This document shows positions 1-13,025 of a DNA stretch of 64,000 bases, piece after piece (the stretch's first letter is position 1; each line of letters starts with the position of its first letter). Under the pieces are notes generated by a model. The model ran no database searches, was not told the origin of the DNA, and saw only the letters and a list, made by a program, of their open reading frames with translations. The stretch covers positions 1-64,000 of the forward strand of contig JAPOVS010000027.1 of the NCBI GenBank assembly GCA_026708055.1, given 5' to 3'. The position numbers and the translations under genes are program-made. This DNA comes from a bacterium (GTDB taxonomy: Bacteria; Actinomycetota; Acidimicrobiia; Acidimicrobiales; CATQHL01).

Positions 1-3000
1 GTTGACCGTGAGCGGCGACGCCGGGGCCGGGCGGGCGGTGACCGTGAAGGCGGCGGGGGCGCCTTCGGTGATCCCGCTGCCTGCGGTGACGCTGATCTCG
101 GGGGCGGCGGCGTGTCGGCGCGCCTCGTCGAGTTTTTGGGCGAGGGCGAGGACGCGTTGCCAGCGTTCGCGGGGCTGGCCGCGTCGGACGCCGGCGGCGT
201 GGTCTCGGAGCTCGTGGAGGGTGAAGCCGCCGGGCGCGCCGAGGAGGGTGTCGAGGGCGCGTTCCCAGTTGGCGAGGGCGCGCTGGTTGGCGGTGACGTT
301 CGTGTGGCGGTCGATCATGTCGAGGATGAGCTTGTGGACGGCGGCGGCTTCGGGGTCGGCGGCGTCGACGATGGCGAAGGTCAGGCTCTGCTGGACCGGC
401 ACGTGCACGGCGTCGCCGGAGCCGTCGAAGTAGGCCGCTCCGTCGAGCGCCAGCGTGAGCTGCTCGTCCTCGGCCTCGGCGTCGGCGAGCGCGGTCAGCT
501 TGAGCACGGCGCGGTCCGCGCCGGCGGAGAAGGTGAGCAGCGACCGGGCCGCGCTGAGCGGCTGGTCCTCGCTGACCGTGACGCCCGGGCTCGACGCGGC
601 GTCGAGTGTGAGCGTGTAGTCCTCGCCGGGCGTCGCGCCCGACGCCGCGAGCACGGCGCGCACCTGCTCGTCGCCCTCGAGCGCCGTCGCGAGGCGCAGG
701 GTGATCACCGCGCCGTCGCCGCCCTCGACCAGCTGCGGCAGGCCGCCCGAGGAGCCCTGCGCCCGCGGCGGCGCGCCCGGGCCGCCCGAGGGGGGCGCGT
801 TGGAGCCGGAGGGGGGCGCGCCGGTGCCTGTGGGGTTGCCGTCGGCGTCGCCGGGGCCGCTGTGGATCTGCGGCTGGCCGTCGGGGTCGGGCCGCGGCGG
901 GCCGGTCGGCGAGTTCGAGCCGGCCGGGACCGTCCCGGCGTCGGTCACGCGCACCGTCGCCGACTCGCTGCTGGACGCTAGCCGGTAGCCCGTGCCCGTG
1001 TTCAGGGTCACGGTGATCGACCCGTCCGGCTCGGTGAGGTTGTCCCACCTCGTGGGGACGTCGAACTGGACGGCGCCGGTGAAGCCGATGCCGGGGGGGA
1101 TGTTCACCGTGTTGGCGCCCGGCGTGAAGTTCCCGGTGTCGATCACGTCGCCCGTCTGGGTGACCGTCACCGACAGGGGCAAGGGATTATCGAAGATGTT
1201 GCCGATGTAGCGGACGGTGAAGCTGGCGACCTGGCCCTCCGCGATCGGGTCGCCGCTGCCGCCGCCGCGCCGGACGGTCCAATGCCGCCCGACGTGCAGG
1301 CTGACCGTCGCGGGCGACACCGGGACCTCGCTGCTGCCGGTGAGGTCGTGCGCGGCGCTCATCCACATGTAGCCCGGCATCCGGCCCGCGGTGAAGCGCT
1401 CCGCGTCGAGGTAGCTGCTGCACACGTCGCCCAGGTTCTGCGTCGAGGACATCAGGTGGATGCGCATCGTCTCCATGGTGACGCTGCCGTAGCCGCCGCC
1501 GGAGAGCGTGTGCGTCACGTCCACGCACTCGTTGTTCGCGAGCGGCTTGACCCAGACCGCGAACCCGGGCTTGACCGAGACCGCGCCGCCGCGGTCGACG
1601 GTGAAGTGCTCGGGGTTGAGCGTGACCGCGAGCTCGTCGTCGGTGTAGGTCCCGTTCTGGCCCCAGGGCGGCTCCGACGCGCCGGGCGTGACCGAGAAGG
1701 CGACCCGCCCCGTCTCGGCGTTGTTGTTGTCAGCGTCGCTGACCGCCTTGATCGTCAGCGTCACCGGCCCGGTGGGCAGGTAGTCCGCGCGGAACCAGAT
1801 CTTGTAGTCCAGCGGGCTGCCGAACAGCCGCAGGTCCCGGTGCCAGTAGTAGTCGTCGGCGTTCAGCTCGAGGCCGTTGCTCTTCCGCTTCGGCGGGTCC
1901 CGGTAGCGGGTGATCGTCCAGGTGCCGTCGGCCAGGTAGCGCGCCTGGCGCAGGTAGTAGTCCCCCGGCACATGCCACTTCAGGTACGGGAACTCGTAGA
2001 CCTCGGGCCGCGGTATCGGCGAGGCGATGTCGTCGTCGGCGATCACGAGGCGCACCGTGTGGGGGTCGCCGCGGCTGTAGAGGGCGTCGTTCTCCGGCAG
2101 GGTCCAGGTGAGGGTCCCGTAGTCGGCGTCGGCTGAGTTGTTGGTGACGCTGATGTCGAAGTCCACGCTCGTGCCGCCGCTGGGGATCGTGGCGCTTGAC
2201 GGGACGGCGCCCGCGTAGCCCGAGCTGTAGGAGGAGCCCGAGGCGAGGCCGGCGACGGCGATGCCGCCGGGCAGCGCGGCCTGGTCCGATTGGATGCGGA
2301 TGCGGCGGGTGCCGCCCTCGGCGATGTGGCCGTGGCCGCCCACCACCGACACGGTGAGAGTGGGCAGCGCGCCGCCCTCGTCGTCGGTCAAGACCAGCTG
2401 CTGGGAGAAGTCGCTGCCCCGGCCCACGCCGCCGCTGACGGTGGTGGCCAGGCCCCGGCCGCTGAGCACCGAGTCAGACACCAGGGCCAGGGTCACGATC
2501 TCGTGCCCGGTGTCGCCGTCGTCGAGGCCCGACACCGGCGTGACGGTGATTGCCGCCTCCTGCACCGTCTCGGACCCGGAGCCGGTGAAGAACAGCTTCG
2601 GCTCCGCGGTGGCGAGGCCCGACGCGGTCACGCCGGCGCCCGTCGCCGCCACCGCGAAGTCGGGGGTGGCGTGGCCGGGCAGCCGCGCCCCGGTCGCGGT
2701 GGTGAGGATCAGCCGCACCTCGATCGCCTCGCGGGCGCGCAGGGGGCGGGACAGGGCGAGCTTCGCTGTCGCGGTGTCAGAAGCGTCGCCCTCGGTCATC
2801 CGCGTGTCGTCGCTCGTCAAAGACACCAGGGTGGCCTCGCCGTCCTTGACCAGCGCCTCGTCCGCCGGCTCCTCCGCCGAGACGGTGTAGCCCGTGCAGC
2901 CCGTCCCCCCGACCACGCGGGCCACCACGGCGCTGTCGGGCTCGTCCACGGCCGTGTCGGTGTAGGGCACCGACAGGGTGCCCGTCGCGCTGTTGGCGAG

Positions 3001-4819
3001 GATGGTGACCGTGCGGCGGCCCTCGTTCGCCGCCGAGACGCGGTCCCCGCCGGTCTCCACGACGTCCACGCACACGTCCTTGTTCGCCGTCGGCGCCGGG
3101 TCCGCGGTGACCGTGAAGCTGAGCGGGCTCTGGCCCTCCTCGCGCACCTGCTGGTCGTAGTCGTTGCGGCTGATGCCCTCAATGTCCGGCAACCCCACCT
3201 TCACCAACGGGGAGGCCGCCGTGTAGTCGCTCGGCTCCACAGTGAATCGCTCCAGGCCCGGAGATGTCACCCGCAGCCCGCTGTTGTGGTTGGTTCCAGC
3301 AAGATAGACGATATGCCGCTGGGCCTGCTGGGCGGTGTTGTCGCTGGGCGCCGTCAGCCTGAACGACGCCGACGACGCGTTGGCGGGAATGGTGGCGTGG
3401 TAGGAGGTGTGAACGTTATAGACCGACCCGGTCACTGTCGTAGCAGCGCCGAAGCTTGAGGCTCGCGGGCCACTCAGTGTCATGCCAATTTCCGTGCTGC
3501 TGGTCCGCGTCGGCGAGATGCTGACCGTGACGGTGACGGTGCCGCCCTCGGCCACCCGGTCAGGCGACACCGACAGGCTGACCTCCGGGCCGGTCGCGGC
3601 GCTGTCCCGGATGTACAGCGCGACGTCCCCGCCTTGGCCGCTGGTGTCGAAGGTCGCGCCCGCTATGCCGCTCACAGCCTGGATCCGCAAGGTTCTGCCG
3701 ACTGTTCTGGGATTGGCGACCGAGTTGGCCGCGGCCGTCGCGGTGAGGCTCGCCGACCGCGGCGCGCCCGCCCCGCTGAAAGTGATGGTCCTGCTGCCGG
3801 TGTTCAGGGTCACCCCCGCGGGCGCGCCGTCCAGGGCCAGGGTGTAACCGATCAGACTTGTGTACGTGGCGTTGATGGTCTCGCCCTCGACGAGGTCGCG
3901 GCTCAGGCTGACCTCCACGGTGGCGGTGTCGGTGCTGCTGCCCTCGGTCATGATCTGGTCGGTGGCGCTCAGGGACACGTGGATCGGCCCCGCCACGATG
4001 AACTCCGGGGACATGGCGTACATGGACCGCGTCTCGGTCCTGGCCCGCTGGCCGTTGCTCAGGGGCCCGTACAGCCTGCCGTTCTCCCGGTGCCTGCCGA
4101 ACTCCACGTTGGTCGGGGCGCCGAGATAGTGAGAGCTCCGGCGGCGGCAGTCGTTCTCGCTGCCGGTCCAGGGCCAGTCGCTGTCGGCGTGGGGCGCGCC
4201 GTTCTCGTTGCGGTGGTCGGCCAGCGTTCCGGCGCGCCACCACTCCGCCGGCTGGGTGCTGCTGCGCCACGGCTGCTCCTGGTTGCAGAAGTCCTGGTAG
4301 TCGTTGGCCACCAGCCCGCCGTCGCCCTCGTCGTCCATCCAGTAGATGGGAACGCCCTTGCGCCAGTTGCCGCCATGGCGGAAGTCCAGGTGGTCCCGAA
4401 GGTTCGCGGCCTGGGTTGAGCCGACCATCTTGAAGCCCGACGCGTACGGCTTGATCGCCGTGAGCGTGTTGGCGCTCTTGGTGATCTCGCTCTGCACGTA
4501 GCCGTCGTAGGTCGCGAGGTCCGTCGCCGTCGCCGCCCACCGCGACGTCGTGCGGAACAACAGCCGGAAACGGTCCCCCGCCCCCAAGCCGCTCGGCTTC
4601 AGCGCCCAGTCGTTCGGCACCACATGCACATCCGCCTCCGGAACCGCCGGAACCGAACCGCCGCCCTGCGCCAAAGCCTCCCGCGCCGCGCCCGCCACCA
4701 GAACCGGCGCCAACAAACCCGGCAGCGCCACCAGCAGCGCCCACTGCCGCGCCCGGCGGCGGCGCCGCCTCAGGTCAGAACAAGAACTCCGCGGGGGGGG
4801 GGGGCGTACTAGAACACAT
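1..4819 (-). CDS. Giant secreted Calx-beta-like repeat protein (partial, start disrupted by homopolymer)
   Basis: This minus-strand reading frame is open from about 4818 to the left edge, giving roughly 1,590 residues with no stop and a missing C-terminus. A hydrophobic signal segment (ALLVALPGLLAPVLVAGAA, about 4740-4684) follows an arginine cluster, so the product is probably exported. A mature N-terminal region (about 4620-4030) is followed by repeated beta-sandwich units with motifs such as EGSSTDTATVEVSLSR and EGGTVTVTVSI, typical of Calx-beta or cadherin-like adhesins. A Gly/Pro linker lies near 950-750, and another unit begins at the window edge (EISVTAGSGITEGAPAAFTV). The only good ATG (4819-4817) is out of frame with the signal peptide unless the 12-base tract at 4793-4804 loses one base; no ATG, GTG or TTG lies in frame between the upstream stop at 4821-4819 and the signal peptide. 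It is probably a surface or matrix protein; no catalytic domain is visible. Confidence 0.75.
4793..4804. repeat. Homopolymer tract of 12 G/C at the start of the adhesin gene
   Basis: Twelve consecutive G on the plus strand (C on the coding strand) lie between the ATG at 4819-4817 and the signal-peptide codons. With 12 bases the ATG frame hits a stop after 14 codons. With 11 (or 14) it runs straight into the signal peptide and the repeat domains. This is either a phase-variable contingency tract or a sequencing/assembly length error. Confidence 0.85.
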
Positions 4820-4822
4820 CAC

Positions 4823-5202
4823 AACTTCTTATGCCCTTTCAATCCTCGCACGCGGCGGGGCGACGCGGTCAGGCCATTCCGAGGGCGCCGCGGCCGCAGC
4901 CGCGCCCTCGGCACCCGAGCGGCTCGCGAGCCTCCACCGGGCGCTCCTCGCCGTCGTCAATCCCGCAGATCTCCGAATGACCGAACTATACCCGCGCCCC
5001 CCAACCCAGAGAACTCGGAGTGTGCTGAGCAATCTACGGGCAGCGCCGGTCGGGTGGCGAAAGCCGTGGATTCCGGCCTTCGCCGGAATGACGGATGCTG
5101 GACCTGCCGCATTGTTCAGCAGTCTCTTGGCCGCCAAACAAGCCGCCGCCCCCCGTCCGAGCCCAGGGATAGCGCCGACGCCACGAGCGCGAGCGCCGTC
5201 CG
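4823..5202. other. Intergenic region between adhesin gene and tRNA-Ala
   Basis: About 380 bases with no convincing gene on either strand; open frames here are arginine/alanine-rich with no recognisable motif. The only recognisable element is one copy of the dispersed palindromic repeat at 5067-5092. The upstream promoter of the adhesin gene must lie here, but I could not pick a clear -35/-10 pair. Confidence 0.6.
5067..5092 (-). repeat. Dispersed 26-bp palindromic repeat, copy 1
   Basis: An imperfect palindrome with core ATTCCGGC...GCCGGAAT. The same 26-bp element occurs at 11197-11222, 27097-27122 and 36419-36444, always between genes. This copy is in the opposite orientation to the other three. 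Confidence 0.8.
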
Positions 5203-5276
5203 TGGAGCTGATGGGACTCGAACCCACGACCCCTTGCTTGCAAAGCAAGTGCTCTAGCCAGCTGAGCTACAGCCCC
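5203..5276 (-). tRNA. tRNA-Ala(TGC)
   Basis: Reverse-strand cloverleaf. Acceptor stem GGGGCTG pairs with CAGCTCC, the D arm is GCTC...GAGC, the anticodon stem CTTGC/GCAAG encloses loop TTTGCAA with anticodon TGC, and the T loop is TTCGAGT. Discriminator base A. CCA is not encoded. Confidence 0.95.
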
Positions 5277-5467: not shown

Positions 5468-7486
5468 ATGACCAACGGTGCATCGACCCAGACGCTGACC
5501 CTGGTCGACGAGTTCCTTCTGACACTCCTCAACGAGGAGGCCGGTTATTTCCACCAGGTGCCCGGCTGGGATCTGAACTGCGCGGTCGTCGGCGCCGGCC
5601 TCGCGGAGCTGTCGCTGAGGTCCCGCATCGACACAGACCTCGATTCGCTGATCCTGCTGGATCCGACCCCGACCGGGGATCCTGCCGTGGACCCGATCCT
5701 GGACAAGATCGCCGGCGAATCCATCCAGGGCAATGCGCAGTACTGGGTCGAACGGCTCGCCTTCCGGGCGGAGTCCGTCGTCGACATGACGCTGGAGCGC
5801 CTGGTCGCGTTGAAGATTCTGGAATACCACGACGGCGACTTCTGGTCCCTGGCCCGCGCCGGCTGGCAGGCAGATCTTCACGCCGCTTCTCTGGAAGGCA
5901 CCGCGGCCGAGTTCGTCACGACCCGCCTCGCCAGGGTGATCTTCAACGATGAGATTCCGGAACCCAGGGACATCATCATCATATGCCTGCTGAACACCTG
6001 TGGTGTCCTGCGTCTCATCTTCCAACTTGATGAAGACGCAGAGGCACGGATCGAACTCATCTGCAAGATGGATGTGATCGGTCGCGCGATAGCCCAGGCG
6101 ATTGAGCACAGCCAGGCCGGCCCTCTGTTCCGAAGTGCTGCCTTGGCCAGGAAGATCCCCGCTGTTCCATTCCGCAAGATTCTGCGGAATAGACATGTTC
6201 GCGACGGCAACCTACCCGCGTTGTTCGCGGGCCTCGCGGAGGAGTACGGCCCGGTGTTCAAGATTCGGCTGCCGTTTGCGAAACCCCTGATCTTTCTTGC
6301 CGGGCCGCGGGTAAATCGCTGGATCCACCGGAATGGGCGATTGTTCCTTAGGACCAGGGAGTACTTCGCTGACATGGAGAGGGTCTACGGCGCGTCGGGC
6401 GTGCTTCCTGCGTTGGATGGCGCAGATCATTTCCGGCTTCGCAAGGTCATGTCGCCGTCACTTGCCCGCCGCAAGCTCGAGGGACTGCTGGGCCCTCTCA
6501 TGAGTCACGGCCGACAGTATATCTCGAGTTGGACCCCCGGAGAAGAGATCACCGCGACACATGTGTGTCGTCAGTTGATTAATGCAGAGACTTCGCCTCT
6601 GCTGGTCAGTGTCGACTCTCAGGACGTCATTGATGACGTGATCGCTTACAAGGAACGAGCACTCAACACACAGATCTCCAGGATCCTTCCCAAGTTCATG
6701 CTGCACACGCCGAAGATGAGACGTCGGGCGAAGCTGGTGAATCTCGTACGGGACAGGGTGCAGAGTGTTCATACATCTGCCCAGCGGGTCGGATGCCCTC
6801 GGGAACTCGCTGACGACCTGCTCGATCTGCACGCCAGCGACCCGCAGTTCTTTCCCGAGTCGAACCTGGGGTTCGCTCTCTCCACTCCGTTGCTCGCCGC
6901 CATGTATCTTGGCGATTCGCTCGCATTCGCATTGTATGCCATGGTCTCACAGCCGGAGCTGAATGAGAGAATCCGCAATGAAGCGGATGCCCTGTTCGCC
7001 GACGGTGATCCGGGACATGAAGATCTCACAGGGTCCGCGGTCGACGTCACTACTCGCTTCATCATGGAGTGCATGCGTCTTTACCCGTCGGTTCCTGCGT
7101 CTATCCGGAACGTCATGAATAGATGCGTCGTTGAGGGCTACGAACTAGTCGACGGTATGCGTATCCATATCTTTACCACGGCGCCGCACTACATGAAAGA
7201 CGCGTTCCCCGACCCCTACAGTTTTGACATCGACCGCTATCTGCCGTCGCGCAAGGAGCATCTCAGTCCCGGTTACGCCCCGTACGGGCTTGGAACGCAC
7301 ATATGTCTCGGATTCCGGTGGATGGAACTGCAACTCGCGGTGAATTTGCTGATGATCGCGCACTATTTCACGCTTGAACTTTCGCCCGCCGACTACAAGC
7401 TCAAGTTCAATCCGTTCCCGTCGATGTCCCCTAGCAAGAAGATGAAGTTCATCGTCTCCGAGCGGAGGCACGAACTACCTGTCTGA
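5468..7486 (+). CDS. GPP34 (GOLPH3-like) domain fused to cytochrome P450
   Basis: A 672-residue protein with two domains. Residues about 8-215 match the GPP34/GOLPH3 family (TLTLVDEFLLTLLNEE, then D-L-rich alternating strands and a WVERLAFRAE segment), which in eukaryotes binds phosphoinositide membranes. Residues about 235-672 form a cytochrome P450: the ExxR pair is at about 534-537 (ECMR) and the heme-thiolate loop YGLGTHICLG has its Cys at about 613. The I-helix segment reads YLGDSLAF, with Ser where a Thr is usual. I chose the ATG at 5468 because GPP34 homology begins within ten residues; an in-frame ATG at 5297 would add 57 low-complexity residues. A small inverted repeat follows the stop. 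The next genes are an RND lipid transporter and a sterol-type methyltransferase. My inference is a membrane-associated monooxygenase acting on a sterol or other polycyclic lipid. The CYP family cannot be fixed by eye. Confidence 0.85.
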   Translation: MTNGASTQTLTLVDEFLLTLLNEEAGYFHQVPGWDLNCAVVGAGLAELSLRSRIDTDLDSLILLDPTPTGDPAVDPILDKIAGESIQGNAQYWVERLAFRAESVVDMTLERLVALKILEYHDGDFWSLARAGWQADLHAASLEGTAAEFVTTRLARVIFNDEIPEPRDIIIICLLNTCGVLRLIFQLDEDAEARIELICKMDVIGRAIAQAIEHSQAGPLFRSAALARKIPAVPFRKILRNRHVRDGNLPALFAGLAEEYGPVFKIRLPFAKPLIFLAGPRVNRWIHRNGRLFLRTREYFADMERVYGASGVLPALDGADHFRLRKVMSPSLARRKLEGLLGPLMSHGRQYISSWTPGEEITATHVCRQLINAETSPLLVSVDSQDVIDDVIAYKERALNTQISRILPKFMLHTPKMRRRAKLVNLVRDRVQSVHTSAQRVGCPRELADDLLDLHASDPQFFPESNLGFALSTPLLAAMYLGDSLAFALYAMVSQPELNERIRNEADALFADGDPGHEDLTGSAVDVTTRFIMECMRLYPSVPASIRNVMNRCVVEGYELVDGMRIHIFTTAPHYMKDAFPDPYSFDIDRYLPSRKEHLSPGYAPYGLGTHICLGFRWMELQLAVNLLMIAHYFTLELSPADYKLKFNPFPSMSPSKKMKFIVSERRHELPV

Positions 7487-7507
7487 GGCACTCCGGACGG
7501 GCTTGGC

Positions 7508-7528
7508 GGGCAGCGCCGGTCACTGCCC
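7508..7528. terminator. Possible bidirectional terminator hairpin
   Basis: GGGCAG (7508-7513) can pair with CTGCCC (7523-7528) across a 9-base loop, between the convergent ends of the P450 and RND genes. There is no T tract, so this is only a plausible stem-loop. Confidence 0.3.
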
Positions 7529-7541
7529 GGGCATCACATGG

Positions 7542-10037
7542 TCAGTCTGCCGTCGAGGGGGATTCCGTCTCTGGGTGGTGTCGGCGGTGGATCTCCTCGG
7601 CGACGATGTCGAGGTCGTCCCACATGCGTTGCACCTGCGAGCGGAGCTTCATGTTCTGGTAGGCACCCCAGATGGTCATCGCCGGCGGGACGACCAGGAT
7701 CGAGACGATGAGCGAGTAGGCGATCGTGATGGCGGCGGTGATGCCGAGTTGCTGGGAGCCCTCCAGCGGTGAGAGCACCAGCACGCCGAACCCCAATGCG
7801 GTCGTCAACGCCGAGCCCAGCAGCGCCGACCCCGTGGTGGAGAGCGTCCGGATCGCCGCTTGCTCCGGGTTGCGGAGGCGGCTGAACTCCTCCCGGTACC
7901 GGTGGATCACGTGGATCGTGTAGTCCACGCCGATCCCGATCGAGAGCGCCGTGATGATCGAGGTGAGCATCGTGTAGGGAATGCCCACGAGCGCCATCGT
8001 GCCCAGCACCCAGATGAGGACCAGCACGATCGGGCCGACCGCGATGACCCCCAGCGCGGGCCGTCGCTGCGTGAGCCAGAAGAACAGGGCGAGGATGCCC
8101 AGCGCCACACCGACCGTCGAGGCGATCGCCTCGGTCTGCCGGGATGTGATCTGGTTGGCGATCTCGACGCCCAGGATGCTCGCGGAGGTCGCCGTGATGG
8201 CCTCGTCATCGCCGGCCCAGAGCGCCTCGATCTCCTCCTGGACGTGCAACGTCGCCGCGGGGTTGTCCGTGTAGACGGGGAACTGGAGCAGCAGCTTGTC
8301 GTCACCGTCGGGGTTGTTGACCAGGACACGAGCGACCTCGGGATCTGTCGCCTCGATCCTGTCGAGGAACTCCTGCATCAGGACCGGGTCGACGGCCACC
8401 CCTGCGGATGCCTCACTGAACAGCGCCGCCAGCTCCGGGTCGTACTTGTCCCCGGGCCGGCCGCTGTCGTGGGTCCAGTCCACGAGGATCGATTCGAAGG
8501 ACCCTTCCAGCGGTCCCGCCACCGCCGCCGGACGGCGCTGGGGGTCAGCGAAGGCGGCTTCGAGCTCGTCCAGGTTCAGGAGCGTGCGGGTCTCGGTGGC
8601 CTCGGCTCTCACGAGCATGCTGGCGAGTTCCGTCGAGCCGCCCACGGACGCCTCGAGCGTCTCCAGATCGTTCAGGACGGTGCCGCCCTTGGGCAGGACG
8701 TCGCGGATGCTGAACTCGGCATGGAGGCCGCTGGCCGCGAACGCCATCCAGATCGTCACGCCGGTCACGGCGATGAGGTAGGGCGCCGGGCGCCGCGCCA
8801 CGCTCGTCCCGAGCATCTCTGCTCCCCGCTCGATGCCGGGCAGTGCTCCGGAGACCCGGCGGGGCTCCTTCAGCTTGCCGCGCGCCTCGCGCCGGCGGTC
8901 GATGATCGTCCGGCCTGCCGGGATCAGTGTGAGCATGACGACGAGGCTCAGCGCCACGCCGAGCGCGGCGACGACGCCGAAGTCGCCGAGTGTCCCGATC
9001 GGCGAGAACAGGTTCGCCAGGAAGCTGGCCGCCGTCGTCACAGCCGCCAGTGCCAGCGGGATGGCGACGTTGCGGAGCCCGGCGCGGACCGCCTGCTGCA
9101 CCGCCAGGCCCTCGGCTCGCTGCTCGCGGTAGTGCGAGACGGCTTGAATGGCGTAGTCAACCGAGAGGCTGATCAGCATGATCGGCACCATCACGGTGAG
9201 CGAACTCGGCGGCCCGATCAACCCCAGCGCGTTCGGTCCCAGCCAGCCCTCCGCCCCGACGATCCAGATCAGCGAGAACAGCAGCCCCAGGAGTGTGAGC
9301 AGCAGATCCGAGAACGAGCGCAGGAAGAGCAGGAGCAGCGCGGCGATCAGCACCAGCGCCACGCCTATCAACGGCAGCATTCCGGTCTCGGTGGCCTCGG
9401 TGTACTCGTCCTCGATCACTATGACCGACATGCTGGTCACGCCGAGCGGGCCCTCGGAGCCCGAGGCCAGGTCGTCGATTGTCCGTTCGATGTCGGCGAT
9501 TCGCTCGTCGCCGCTGTCGAGCAGCCGGATCGTGGCGATGGCGATCGGCGTTCCGTCGTCGTCGATTCCGGTCACGGCGCCGAGCGCCTCCCCGATCTCC
9601 GGGACGCTGCGGACCGAGTCGATCTCGGCCTGCGCGAGCGATGCCAGATCGTCGCGTTCGAGGATGCCCCCGATCAGCAGGCTGGGGGCGAAGACCGGAT
9701 CGGCCGGTGCCAGTTGCGCCGTCACGTCCGCGTCGCTGAGGATCGTGTCGAGCAGGGCGTCCATCTGGGCCAGCCCGCCGGGCGTCAGGGCCTCGCCGCG
9801 GAAGACCAGCGTCACGACCCTGACATCGCTGTGGCCCCCGAAGCTCTCGTCGATCTCGATCACCGCAGAGCGGACGTCGTTGCTGGCAGGAAGCAGGGCC
9901 AGCGAGACCCCCTCCGTCGGCGGCGCTCGCCGCGTCGCCCCCGCGGCCAGCACGACGGTGACGAGGATCAGCACGCCGATGGTGATCCACGGCCGGACCG
10001 TGACCAGGCGGCTGAACCTGTCGAGAGGACGGCTCAC
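7542..10037 (-). CDS. RND/MMPL-family transporter
   Basis: About 831 residues with the duplicated RND layout: a transmembrane helix near the N-terminus, a large periplasmic loop, a block of five helices including SVDYAIQAVSHYREQ, then a second half with the same plan and the equivalent motif GVDYTIHVIHRYREE. This is the architecture of MMPL and hopanoid/sterol transporters (HpnN and BstA types), which move lipids out of the inner membrane. The GTG start at 10037 is preferred; an upstream GTG/ATG choice at 10097 would almost touch the divergent methyltransferase start. It lies between the GPP34-P450 gene (convergent) and the sterol methyltransferase gene (divergent), so it may export the lipid those enzymes modify. 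No periplasmic partner gene is adjacent. Confidence 0.85.
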   Translation of the reverse strand: MSRPLDRFSRLVTVRPWITIGVLILVTVVLAAGATRRAPPTEGVSLALLPASNDVRSAVIEIDESFGGHSDVRVVTLVFRGEALTPGGLAQMDALLDTILSDADVTAQLAPADPVFAPSLLIGGILERDDLASLAQAEIDSVRSVPEIGEALGAVTGIDDDGTPIAIATIRLLDSGDERIADIERTIDDLASGSEGPLGVTSMSVIVIEDEYTEATETGMLPLIGVALVLIAALLLLFLRSFSDLLLTLLGLLFSLIWIVGAEGWLGPNALGLIGPPSSLTVMVPIMLISLSVDYAIQAVSHYREQRAEGLAVQQAVRAGLRNVAIPLALAAVTTAASFLANLFSPIGTLGDFGVVAALGVALSLVVMLTLIPAGRTIIDRRREARGKLKEPRRVSGALPGIERGAEMLGTSVARRPAPYLIAVTGVTIWMAFAASGLHAEFSIRDVLPKGGTVLNDLETLEASVGGSTELASMLVRAEATETRTLLNLDELEAAFADPQRRPAAVAGPLEGSFESILVDWTHDSGRPGDKYDPELAALFSEASAGVAVDPVLMQEFLDRIEATDPEVARVLVNNPDGDDKLLLQFPVYTDNPAATLHVQEEIEALWAGDDEAITATSASILGVEIANQITSRQTEAIASTVGVALGILALFFWLTQRRPALGVIAVGPIVLVLIWVLGTMALVGIPYTMLTSIITALSIGIGVDYTIHVIHRYREEFSRLRNPEQAAIRTLSTTGSALLGSALTTALGFGVLVLSPLEGSQQLGITAAITIAYSLIVSILVVPPAMTIWGAYQNMKLRSQVQRMWDDLDIVAEEIHRRHHPETESPSTAD

Positions 10038-10099
10038 GTCCCTTGACTGTAGCCCGTGCCCGCGCCGGGGCCGGCTCGGCGGCGATACGATGAGCATCC

Positions 10100-11140
10100 G
10101 TGGTGATGGCGCTCGGCCGGGTCATAGGCGCCCTACGAGCTGCGCATCGGGGCACGGACGTCGCGGGTCGTGTGGCTGACTTCGAACAATGGATCGAAAG
10201 ATCCGCTGCCGCCGACGCGGGCTCCTCGGAATACGACCACACCGCGGTGGTCAACGACTACTACGACCTCTGCAACCAGTTCATGGAACTCGGCTGGGGT
10301 GAGTCCCTGCAATTCGCGCCCCTGGCACCGAAGGAGACGCTGGAGCAGGCCATCGCCCGTCACCAGCGGGCGATGATCGCCAAGCTGAGGCTGGAGCCGG
10401 CAATGGATGTCGTCGACATCGGATGCGGATTCGGCGCACTGATGCGCCGCGTTGCGACAGAGGCCGATGTGCGGGTCGTCGGCATCAACAACAACGAACA
10501 CCAGATCGAGCAGGCGAAGCTCCGCAATCGCGAAGCCGGCCTGGATCGGGTGAGCGACTGCCTCGAGTGCAACATCATGGACATGAGCAGCATCGGAGCA
10601 GGCTCCTTCGACAGGGGCTATGCCATCGAGTCGACTTGCCACACTCCGGACAGGGCCAAGGCGTACGCAGAGATCTTCCGCATCCTGAAACCGGGAGCCT
10701 TGTTCTGGGGCCAAGAGATGTGTATGACCGACGGCTTCGATCCGATATCCGCCGAACATCGATCCATCAAGCAGGACCTCATGCTGACCATCGCACTGAA
10801 GGAGATCCCCCGCTTCGCCGAGGTGAACCTGGCGCTCGAGTCGGCTGGATTCGAGGTCCTCGAGGGCTCTGACAGAAGCAACAGCGACGGTTGCACAGTC
10901 CCCTGGTACGCTCCCATGGAAGGTCGCTACGGGAAGCTGGGGCGCGGGCTCATCCGTGTCCCCAAGGTCCGTAAGGCGCTTGTAGCGGCGTCGAGGGCGG
11001 CAGAGGTCGTGCGAGTCCTCCCGCGCGGTTCAGCCAGGGTTCTCGCACTCATGAATCGAGCGGCCGACGCCTACGTCAGCGGCGGCAGGGCCGGGATCTT
11101 CACACCCCTGTACTGCTTCCTGGCCAGGAAACCCGTCTGA
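10100..11140 (+). CDS. Sterol C-24 methyltransferase (ERG6/SMT1) homologue
   Basis: A 346-residue SAM-dependent methyltransferase that follows the ERG6/SMT layout over its whole length. Residues about 61-71 (FMELGWGESLQF) match sterol region I, normally YEYGWG. VVDIGCGFG at about 104-112 is the SAM-binding loop, GINNNEHQIEQA at about 128-139 matches the SMT NNxxQI motif, and YAIESTCHTP at about 174-183 matches region III. Residues EHRSIKQDL and VPWYAP follow, and the C-terminus IFTPLYCFLARKP is the SMT ending. Two aromatic positions of region I are replaced (M and L for Y and Y), which could change side-chain specificity. GTG at 10100 starts the frame; the ATG two codons later is equally possible. 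It is divergent from the RND gene with a 62-bp gap, suggesting a shared promoter. The exact substrate is unproven. Confidence 0.87.
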   Translation: MVMALGRVIGALRAAHRGTDVAGRVADFEQWIERSAAADAGSSEYDHTAVVNDYYDLCNQFMELGWGESLQFAPLAPKETLEQAIARHQRAMIAKLRLEPAMDVVDIGCGFGALMRRVATEADVRVVGINNNEHQIEQAKLRNREAGLDRVSDCLECNIMDMSSIGAGSFDRGYAIESTCHTPDRAKAYAEIFRILKPGALFWGQEMCMTDGFDPISAEHRSIKQDLMLTIALKEIPRFAEVNLALESAGFEVLEGSDRSNSDGCTVPWYAPMEGRYGKLGRGLIRVPKVRKALVAASRAAEVVRVLPRGSARVLALMNRAADAYVSGGRAGIFTPLYCFLARKPV

Positions 11141-11273: not shown

Positions 11274-13025
11274 GTGCGCGCGCACCGACTTCGTGTTCTC
11301 TTGGGGGGTCTCGCATTGCTGGCGGCGTCCTGCGCGAGCGGCGATGGGGCCGAGGCGCCCACCTCCGATGGGTCGCCAGCAGCGGCCGGGCCGCAGCGGG
11401 ACGCTGTGGCGGCGCCCCCCGCGGGCGGCGAGCGGGACTCCGGCGGGGCGGGGCCGCGGGCCGCTGACGGCGCCGCGCCGGATCCTGATCTAGCGCCATC
11501 GCCGTCCCCGGTCGACGCGGGGTCGGCTCCGGACGTCGACCGGCCGCCGGGCGGCAACGACGGGCCGGCACCGGCCGAAAGTCCGCCGGAGCCTCCGACC
11601 GCCGAGGCGGACGAGCACGTCGTCGAATTGCAGCAGGCCGACGCCGGGTCGGTTGTCGAGGTCGAGCCGGCCGACGATGCCACGCCGGTGGCGGATGACC
11701 TCGAGGTACACCCGGTCGAACGCGCCGCACTGCGGAACTTCCGCGGCTACGAGTTCCCGCCCGCGCCCGACGTGCCGTCCGGTCCGCTCGGGCAGGCGGC
11801 GGCCGAAGACCTCGAGGCTGTCTGGTCGGGGCTCACGACCGAGGTCGATGTCGGTGCGGTCGCCCGACTCGGGCAGTCCGGGGACCCGAGACTGGGCTGG
11901 ATCCTCTCGGACCTCCTCAGGTTCTTCTACTACGGCGAGGTCCACGAGGAGGCGGTGTCCGCCTTCGAGACGTTGACGGGTGTGAGCCTGGCCGCCGATC
12001 CGGTGGCGGCCCGCAGCCCGTGGCAGTCCGTCACCGACCACATGTTCGCCTGGGATCTGCCCGCCTTCGACGGCTACGTCGACTACAAGGAGCGGCTGTT
12101 CACGCTGGTGGAGCCGGGCTGGCAGCCGTTCTTCGACGACCCTGAGTCGGCCATCGACTGGCGGTTCGTGAGTTGGGGAGGGGTGCGGATCGACGACCGC
12201 CCGCTCGGCGACCCGCAGCGGTGCGTCCGGGGCTGCATCCCGGCCCGCGACGACCCGCCGGTCACCGCCGCCGCCGGAGGTGCCTGGTATCCCGACGACC
12301 GCATCGTGTTCGCGCTGGTCATCGGCGGCGAGGCCAGGGCCTATCCGAAGAACTTCATGGAAGTCCACGAGATGGTCAACGACACGCTCGGGGGACGCAG
12401 GATCGGCTTCCCTTATTGCACGCTGTGCGGCGCCGCCCAGGCCTACTTCACCGACGACGTTCCCCCTGGCGTCGAGACACCGGTGCTGCGGACCTCGGGG
12501 CTGCTCTCGCGGTCCAACAAGGTCATGTACGACCTCGTCACCAAGTCGGTGTTCGACACCTTCACCGGCGAGGCCGTCTCGGGACCGCTCCGGGAGAAGG
12601 GAGTGGTCCTCAACCAGGCGACCGTCGTGACCACCACTTGGGGCGAGTGGAAGGCCGCCCATCCCACTACGACGATCGTCGCCCGCGACGGCGGTATCGG
12701 CCACAGCTACCCGCTCGACCCGCTGCGCGGCCGCGACGACGACGGGCCCATCTTCCCGATCGGAGACGTCGACGCGCGCCTCGGCGTCCACGACCAAGTC
12801 TTCGGCGTGGTCCTCGATGACGGCACCCCGGTCGCCTTCCCGGTGGACGCCGCGGTCGCTGTGCTCGAGGCCGGCCGAACCGTGGAACTCGCTGGCGGCA
12901 GCCTCCGCCTCGACGGGGGCGGCGTGCGCGCTGTCGACGCCGCCGGCAACGAGATCGAAGGCCACCAGGCCTTCTGGTTCGCCTGGAGCCAGTTCATGCC
13001 CGACACCCTCCTCTGGGCGCCCTGA
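11274..13025 (+). CDS. DUF3179-domain lipoprotein
   Basis: A 583-residue protein that starts with a lipoprotein signal (arginines, then LLGGLALLAASC with the lipobox Cys at about residue 20). A long Pro/Ala/Gly/Asp-rich linker of about 150 residues follows, suggesting a tethered extracytoplasmic domain. From about residue 330 the DUF3179 hallmarks appear: GGEARAYPKNFMEVHEMVND, FPYCTLCGAAQAY with the conserved CxxC-like pair, and GHSYPLDPL. The family function is unknown; the CTLC pair might bind a metal or redox centre. The start is GTG. No operon partner is evident. Confidence 0.75.
   Translation: MRAHRLRVLLGGLALLAASCASGDGAEAPTSDGSPAAAGPQRDAVAAPPAGGERDSGGAGPRAADGAAPDPDLAPSPSPVDAGSAPDVDRPPGGNDGPAPAESPPEPPTAEADEHVVELQQADAGSVVEVEPADDATPVADDLEVHPVERAALRNFRGYEFPPAPDVPSGPLGQAAAEDLEAVWSGLTTEVDVGAVARLGQSGDPRLGWILSDLLRFFYYGEVHEEAVSAFETLTGVSLAADPVAARSPWQSVTDHMFAWDLPAFDGYVDYKERLFTLVEPGWQPFFDDPESAIDWRFVSWGGVRIDDRPLGDPQRCVRGCIPARDDPPVTAAAGGAWYPDDRIVFALVIGGEARAYPKNFMEVHEMVNDTLGGRRIGFPYCTLCGAAQAYFTDDVPPGVETPVLRTSGLLSRSNKVMYDLVTKSVFDTFTGEAVSGPLREKGVVLNQATVVTTTWGEWKAAHPTTTIVARDGGIGHSYPLDPLRGRDDDGPIFPIGDVDARLGVHDQVFGVVLDDGTPVAFPVDAAVAVLEAGRTVELAGGSLRLDGGGVRAVDAAGNEIEGHQAFWFAWSQFMPDTLLWAP

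Follow-up and report, generated by a model that had tools for sequence, protein, structure and literature searches.

The window, by which we mean the whole stretch of 64,000 nucleotides analysed here, corresponds to contig C27 of a 3.9 Mb genome (96% complete, 87 contigs) that probably belongs to an acidimicrobiial sponge symbiont. The locus under study contains the following features.

5202..5276, minus strand: tRNA-Ala (tgc), found by ARAGORN; directly adjoins the low-GC GPP34-P450 gene
5468..7486, plus strand: P0001, GPP34-cytochrome P450 fusion, 672 aa; a single ORF, assigned with Pfam
5501..6109, plus strand: GPP34 (GOLPH3-like) domain of P0001, residues 12-214; PF05719, E 8.4e-27
6200..7450, plus strand: P450 domain of P0001; PF00067, E 3e-31; haem ligand Cys613 (codon 7304-7306) in GLGTHICLG, ExxR at 534-537
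7542..10097, minus strand: P0002, MMPL/RND (HAE3-like) transporter, 851 aa; PF03176, E 1e-46; the start may be nearer 10040
10037..10103, no strand: scar in place of the KshA-like Rieske oxygenase gene present in loci L099-L101; blastn
10100..11140, plus strand: P0003, sterol-methyltransferase-like protein (SMT-A clade), 346 aa; Sterol_MT_C PF08498, E 3e-14; likely start at 10106 (ATG)

Open reading frames and Pfam domains bore out the three genes that the first-pass annotation had described. Comparison with close relatives gave dN/dS values of 0.21-0.38 for the GPP34-P450, MMPL and SMT-A genes, indicating that all three are under purifying selection. A scan for promoters and terminators gave nothing exceeding chance level.

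The methyltransferase, which had been called ERG6-type, is the sole PF08498 protein of the genome, and its Sterol_MT_C domain scores 53.2 bits against a curated Pfam cut-off of 21.7. The earlier label is correct as far as the superfamily goes; within it, the protein falls into a divergent clade that is sister to the canonical sterol methyltransferases (SMTs). In our tree, SMT-A, SMT-B and ERG6 split from RebM, MitM and SpnF (SH-aLRT 99) and SMT-A formed a clade of its own (94), a result to be taken as a lead given the quick method, the long branches and a provisional yeast ERG6 sequence. A grouping with other small-molecule methyltransferases, which had been named as speaking against a sterol role, was not found in this tree, in which RebM, MitM and SpnF represented them, and on tree and Sterol_MT_C domain together we rejected that identity for SMT-A. 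Two paralogs occur in the class: SMT-A, the type found in the window (49-59% identical), and SMT-B (~38%), the sequence of which resembles canonical ERG6. Relative to this provisional ERG6, SMT-A has ELGWG in region I, DIGCGFG in region II and YAIESTCH in region III, while its region IV reads WGQEMCMTD where ERG6 has A-x-YEW-x-MTD. It departs from both SMT-B and ERG6 at F89L, A221W and Y223Q (yeast numbering), which lie in the sterol-binding regions I and IV. Judged from the sequence, these replacements suggest a changed substrate or product, and because they fall in sterol-binding regions, C-24 specificity should not be assumed for SMT-A. A structural model (pLDDT 86.6) showed a class I methyltransferase fold, and a structure search with it returned generic methyltransferase folds only and no SMT structure. 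Brown et al. 2023 (PMC10070321) describe sponge-symbiont SMTs of the same superfamily and kind of host, often accompanied by other sterol genes, and report that several bacterial SMTs carry out multi-step methylation in vitro, up to 24-isopropyl sterols. One A. aerophoba scaffold in that study carried two SMTs, as does L111. SMT-A is a clade of its own with altered region I and IV residues.

We examined the distribution of SMT-A with one scan of named genomes, which returned 469 relatives; the best 80, all of them SMT-A (55-87%), were analysed as loci. These best 80 of 469 come from MAGs, mostly from sponges and some from coral, and represent ten named phyla: Actinomycetota, Nitrospirota, Nitrospinota, Gemmatimonadota, Chloroflexota, Pseudomonadota, Acidobacteriota, Rhodothermota, Bacteroidota and Dadabacteria (listed under Thermodesulfobacteriota). 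Many bins carry names (RHO, COS, IRC, SB06xx, Plut) that suggest an origin in reef sponges or a coral; the hosts listed in PMC8163846 agree with the prefixes RHO, COS and IRC, which would map these bins to their hosts. Of the 80 named loci, 65 have a GPP34-P450 gene no more than ~10 kb away from SMT-A, and this neighbour is found in 43 of the 48 loci in the set whose flanks each extend for 8 kb or more. KshA-like Rieske genes occur in 57/80 and FAD amine-oxidase-like genes in 29/80. For two single-copy genes in a genome of 3-4 Mb, chance proximity would be expected in less than 1% of cases, and since the linkage is seen in 65 of these best 80 of 469 relatives, across many phyla, it is not due to chance. 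Bacteria of about nine phyla, from sponges and corals, share the SMT-A and GPP34-P450 pair. Within the class of the host genome, a related methyltransferase occurs in 25 of 395 genomes, where it and GPP34-P450 are mostly on different contigs. Full-length GPP34-P450 was found in 24 of these 25 SMT-bearing genomes and in 0 of 20 SMT-free ones, a comparison confounded by habitat and relatedness for which we claim no p-value. The loci nearest to that in the window are L099-L101 (L100 being labelled Acidimicrobiia), which share its synteny, including a DUF3179 gene.

The GPP34 domain of the fusion protein scores 95 bits against a Pfam cut-off of 29.1, and the residues C613, G609, H611, E534 and R537 are at least 97% conserved among 73 homologues. 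GPP34 and P450 form one open reading frame in 61 named loci among the best 80 of 469 SMT-A relatives; these come from independent projects and include the chromosome-scale records L110, L140 and L152, so that an assembly artefact is ruled out as the source of the fusion. Foldseek with the predicted structure (pLDDT 78.5) gave a P450 fold; the P450 folds were generic, and no GPP34 match appeared among the top 50 structure matches. CYP51 is among the best matches by both sequence and fold, sharing the P450 fold, the haem cysteine and the ExxR motif. Unlike CYP51, however, the fusion carries an N-terminal GPP34 domain, and it is only 22% identical to the true CYP51 of L111 over 276 aa, a part of its length, which rules out a CYP51 identity. 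The GPP34 domain may serve as a membrane anchor for the P450 and, if so, the fusion would represent a novel means of fixing a P450 to a bacterial membrane. Neither the GPP34-P450 fusion nor a module of SMT-A, GPP34-P450, Rieske, FAD oxidase and MMPL was described in the literature we searched, where incomplete open-access coverage makes this weak evidence of novelty.

The MMPL transporter lies near the SMT-A/GPP34-P450 pair in 19 of the best 80 of 469 loci, in Chloroflexota and Acidimicrobiia-type bacteria. It has the MMPL/RND superfamily assignment and a sterol-sensing-domain-like match in common with HpnN and BstA but is nearer to the generic HAE3 family, and an identity with either was rejected because the curated cut-offs were missed by far (129.5 bits against 751.85 for the HpnN NCBIfam model and 48.5 against 1400 for BstA). 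A role in transport of the product of the locus is plausible.

The first-pass annotation had read the locus as one for tailoring sterols or triterpenoids. The genomic support for a sterol-tailoring locus is strong, and it includes Nitrospirota symbionts, in which the SMT-P450 pair lies inside complete sterol clusters. In L111, L102, L122 and L105, and in the related L106, SMT-A and GPP34-P450 adjoin genes for SdmB (E 3e-90), SdmA (E 8.5e-123), ERG24, CYP51 (E 1e-100 to the Methylococcus capsulatus enzyme), a squalene-epoxidase-type flavoprotein fused to an oxidosqualene cyclase (SE/OSC) and, in most, SMT-B; where a contig or locus ends, individual loci are missing one or other of these genes. 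Of all the evidence that the pair acts on sterols, these clusters are the strongest. Degradation of sterols for growth by the P450, the KshA-like Rieske oxygenase and the FAD oxidase has parallels in known steroid degraders and novel sponge KshA clusters (PMC5790920), and the Rieske partner does bear a KshA_C domain. We nevertheless give this the slimmest chance of the readings weighed here: an SMT does not belong in a catabolic pathway, the Rieske protein resembles KshA only distantly, and the Nitrospirota module sits among anabolic genes. It is also very unlikely that the substrate of SMT-A is an isoprenoid other than a sterol, whether hopanoid, carotenoid or quinone. Such a substrate would suit a region IV unlike that of ERG6 and a genome that makes hopanoids too, but it sits poorly with the tree position, the Sterol_MT_C domain and the OSC, CYP51 and Sdm genes clustered with SMT-A in Nitrospirota; moreover, hopene cyclase is missing from many SMT-A genomes as well.

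Published work already covers sterol clusters of sponge symbionts (PMC9531527), bacterial SMTs (PMC10070321) and the SE/OSC fusion (PMC7074536). The accessible part of Kelly et al. 2022 (PMC9531527) describes, in Ircinia symbionts, clusters (CSGs) of ERG24-CYP51-LSS with flanking reductase and SMT genes, which occur in 10 phyla and have undergone lateral transfer. The same core is found in L102, L105, L106, L111 and L122, and the 3765-nt LSS alignment given there fits an unrecognised SE/OSC fusion. That part of the account makes no mention of GPP34-P450, a KshA-like Rieske, an FAD oxidase, MMPL or two SMT types, and in contrast to the CSGs it describes, our host genome has the pieces dispersed and CYP51 missing.

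The window itself was said to hold no cyclase or squalene gene, which is correct; such genes lie on other contigs of the genome, where a whole-genome check, suggested at the time, found squalene epoxidase, oxidosqualene cyclase and hopene cyclase. Contig C67 encodes a 1173-aa SE/OSC protein that is 66-78% identical to the Nitrospirota fusions and stands alone, without an ERG24-CYP51 operon. Its front half matches squalene monooxygenase (E 8e-25), and its cyclase half matches TIGR03463 (E 8e-218; 724.8 bits, below the curated cut-off of 851) and human lanosterol synthase (E 4e-131), with the lanosterol-synthase residues H232, D455 and Y503 and the lanosterol-type V453 retained (counted by hand from the alignment). 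We dropped the fusion as a novelty, since MsbE has already been described as bifunctional (PMC7074536). A hopanoid cluster on contig C42 contains a hopene cyclase, two SQS_PSY (squalene/phytoene-synthase-family) genes and HpnE-, HpnG- and HpnH-like genes; its HpnC/D/E genes make up a squalene-forming set. Contig C2 carries an ERG4/ERG24-family reductase (E 1.5e-32) that is ~30% identical to ERG24 of a sponge Nitrospira. No CYP51 ortholog was found among the P450s of the host genome, the best being 28% identical over part of its length, and no SdmA ortholog was found in the genome. Because SE/OSC is present and orthologs of CYP51 and SdmA were not found, the genome is probably able to make a lanosterol-type sterol, but its sequence gives no evident route to demethylation at C-14 and C-4 by the bacterial enzymes known for these steps.

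The msb cluster of a Melophlus symbiont (PMC7074536) resembles this gene set in its bifunctional squalene epoxidase/cyclase MsbE, which has the lanosterol-type valine seen in C67; it also includes a sterol reductase, a demethylase, a Rieske protein and an SMT, and no GPP34-P450 is reported. Since this similar core cluster (msbA-F), from a gammaproteobacterial sponge symbiont, has been proposed for sarasinosides, SMT-A and GPP34-P450 might modify a lanostane aglycone before its glycosylation into a sarasinoside-like norlanostane for chemical defence of the host. The C23-oxo group of sarasinosides has no assigned P450 (PMC7074536) and the missing CYP51 fits a lanostane-type product, but no glycosyltransferase partner was noticed at the locus in the window, the msb locus was reported without sterol genes nearby beyond A-F (PMC7074536), and we consider this pathway quite unlikely here.

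Our preferred reading, at a probability of roughly three in four, is that a sterol-tailoring cassette has spread horizontally among symbionts of sponges and corals and that this locus is a reduced copy of it, acting on a lanosterol-type sterol which the bacterium makes itself. This reading draws on sequence throughout: on genes, domains, catalytic motifs, cyclase active-site residues, linkage, co-occurrence and placement beside canonical SMTs, from which we infer the substrate identity, the methylation and oxidation positions, the GPP34 anchor and the transport role. HpnC/D/E would supply squalene, which the fused SE/OSC would epoxidise and cyclise to a lanosterol-type sterol. With SAM as methyl donor, SMT-A would then methylate the sterol once or several times, most probably at the double bond of the side chain. 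The P450, kept at the membrane by its GPP34 domain, would hydroxylate the sterol, and the MMPL protein would move the resulting compound, either inside the cell envelope or out of it.

Synthesis and tailoring need not go together. Among the 25 genomes of the class with a related SMT, the SE/OSC fusion is confined to three (G000, G380 and G388); three others have a hopene-cyclase-like match only, and the remainder yielded no cyclase at E 1e-20. SMT-A is therefore not tied to de novo synthesis, and since many SMT-A genomes are without a cyclase, their substrate must come from outside, with host sterol the obvious candidate. It is accordingly possible, if somewhat short of an even chance, that the cassette acts mainly on sterols from the sponge or neighbouring symbionts and that de novo synthesis is secondary or vestigial. 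The f40 and f51 genomes with SMT-A or SMT-B all lack oxidosqualene and squalene-hopene cyclases and nearly all have GPP34-P450. A precedent is reported in PMC10070321, where an SMT of Chlamydiae, unaccompanied by further sterol genes, yields 24-isopropyl sterols in vitro. Against this, the genome that contains the window has its own SE/OSC, the full pathway adjoins the pair in Nitrospirota, and a sterol uptake system was not identified.

Which organisms produce the unusual sponge sterols, some of which serve as the oldest animal biomarkers, is disputed, and our results suggest that the odd sterols of sponge and coral hosts are made or remodelled by symbionts. A defined enzyme pair is now tied to sterol clusters across many phyla of bacteria from sponges and corals, some of whose genomes have no cyclase; SMT-A may account for methylations beyond those of canonical SMTs, and the pair and the clusters provide a short list of enzymes to assay. 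A broader proposal, which we regard as rather unlikely, is that SMT-A and GPP34-P450, with the Rieske, FAD oxidase and MMPL proteins, constitute a mobile pan-symbiont module through which many phyla remodel sterols in sponges, including sterols that they do not make themselves. Through such a module, with methyl transfer elsewhere than at C-24 and a new membrane-anchored P450 architecture, bacteria would supply unconventional sterols, side-chain-extended or oxidised, of the kind attributed to sponges.

Returning to the favoured reading of a reduced, laterally acquired cassette, the locus in the window is a reduced copy from which the Rieske gene has been lost, with the FAD oxidase decayed and CYP51 not found. 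The sister loci L099-L101 have the KshA-like Rieske gene between MMPL and SMT-A where the window keeps 67 bp, and no close copy of that gene was found elsewhere in the host genome; fragments of the FAD oxidase lie on C42. The P450 gene has a GC content of 58-62%, against ~70% in its surroundings, and the dip begins at the tRNA-Ala gene (5202..5276), a possible integration site. Low GC beside a tRNA and an SMT-A tree that intermingles phyla both fit lateral transfer.

Outside the window, its own genome (G000) carries the following genes:

L003:2483-6004, contig C67: squalene epoxidase/oxidosqualene cyclase fusion, a single 1173-aa ORF
L004, contig C42: hopanoid cluster with a hopene cyclase, HpnC/D/E, and HpnG- and HpnH-like genes
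C42:39587-39973 (L201-L203): fragments of an FAD amine-oxidase-like gene
L200, C75:76249-77729: two adjacent Rieske oxygenase genes

The fusion stands alone among unrelated flanking genes, and the same fusion is carried by two other genomes of the class, G380 and G388, at 70-71% to the G000 copy. Given the hopanoid cluster on C42, G000 may therefore make both hopanoids and sterols. In sister cassettes from different phyla the FAD amine-oxidase-like gene shows ~78% conservation; the fragments on C42 are a decayed copy of it. The Rieske pair is ~30% similar both to the sterol demethylation protein SdmA and to the KshA-like Rieske.

Two further features lie within the window:

1-4818, minus strand: open frame of ~1600 aa that continues beyond the edge of the window and matches no Pfam family
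11274-13025, plus strand: DUF3179 protein gene adjoining the methyltransferase gene (SMT-A), syntenic in L099-L101, the closest sister loci, and in no others

Elsewhere, Dadabacteria are the sole phylum-level exception to the pairing of SMT-A with the GPP34-P450 fusion: six loci of this phylum (L128, L134, L135, L139, L151 and L168) contain SMT-A and, in most, the KshA-like Rieske, with no GPP34-P450 nearby. In L118 the GPP34-P450 gene is broken into two overlapping frames (7703-9957), which reflects a frameshift or assembly error. A Chloroflexota MAG carries two tandem ERG24-like reductases near its cassette (L158:16437-18860). The SMT-B paralogs of the class (L055-L071) are canonical-looking, ERG6-type genes, and the genomes that carry them mostly lack any cyclase.
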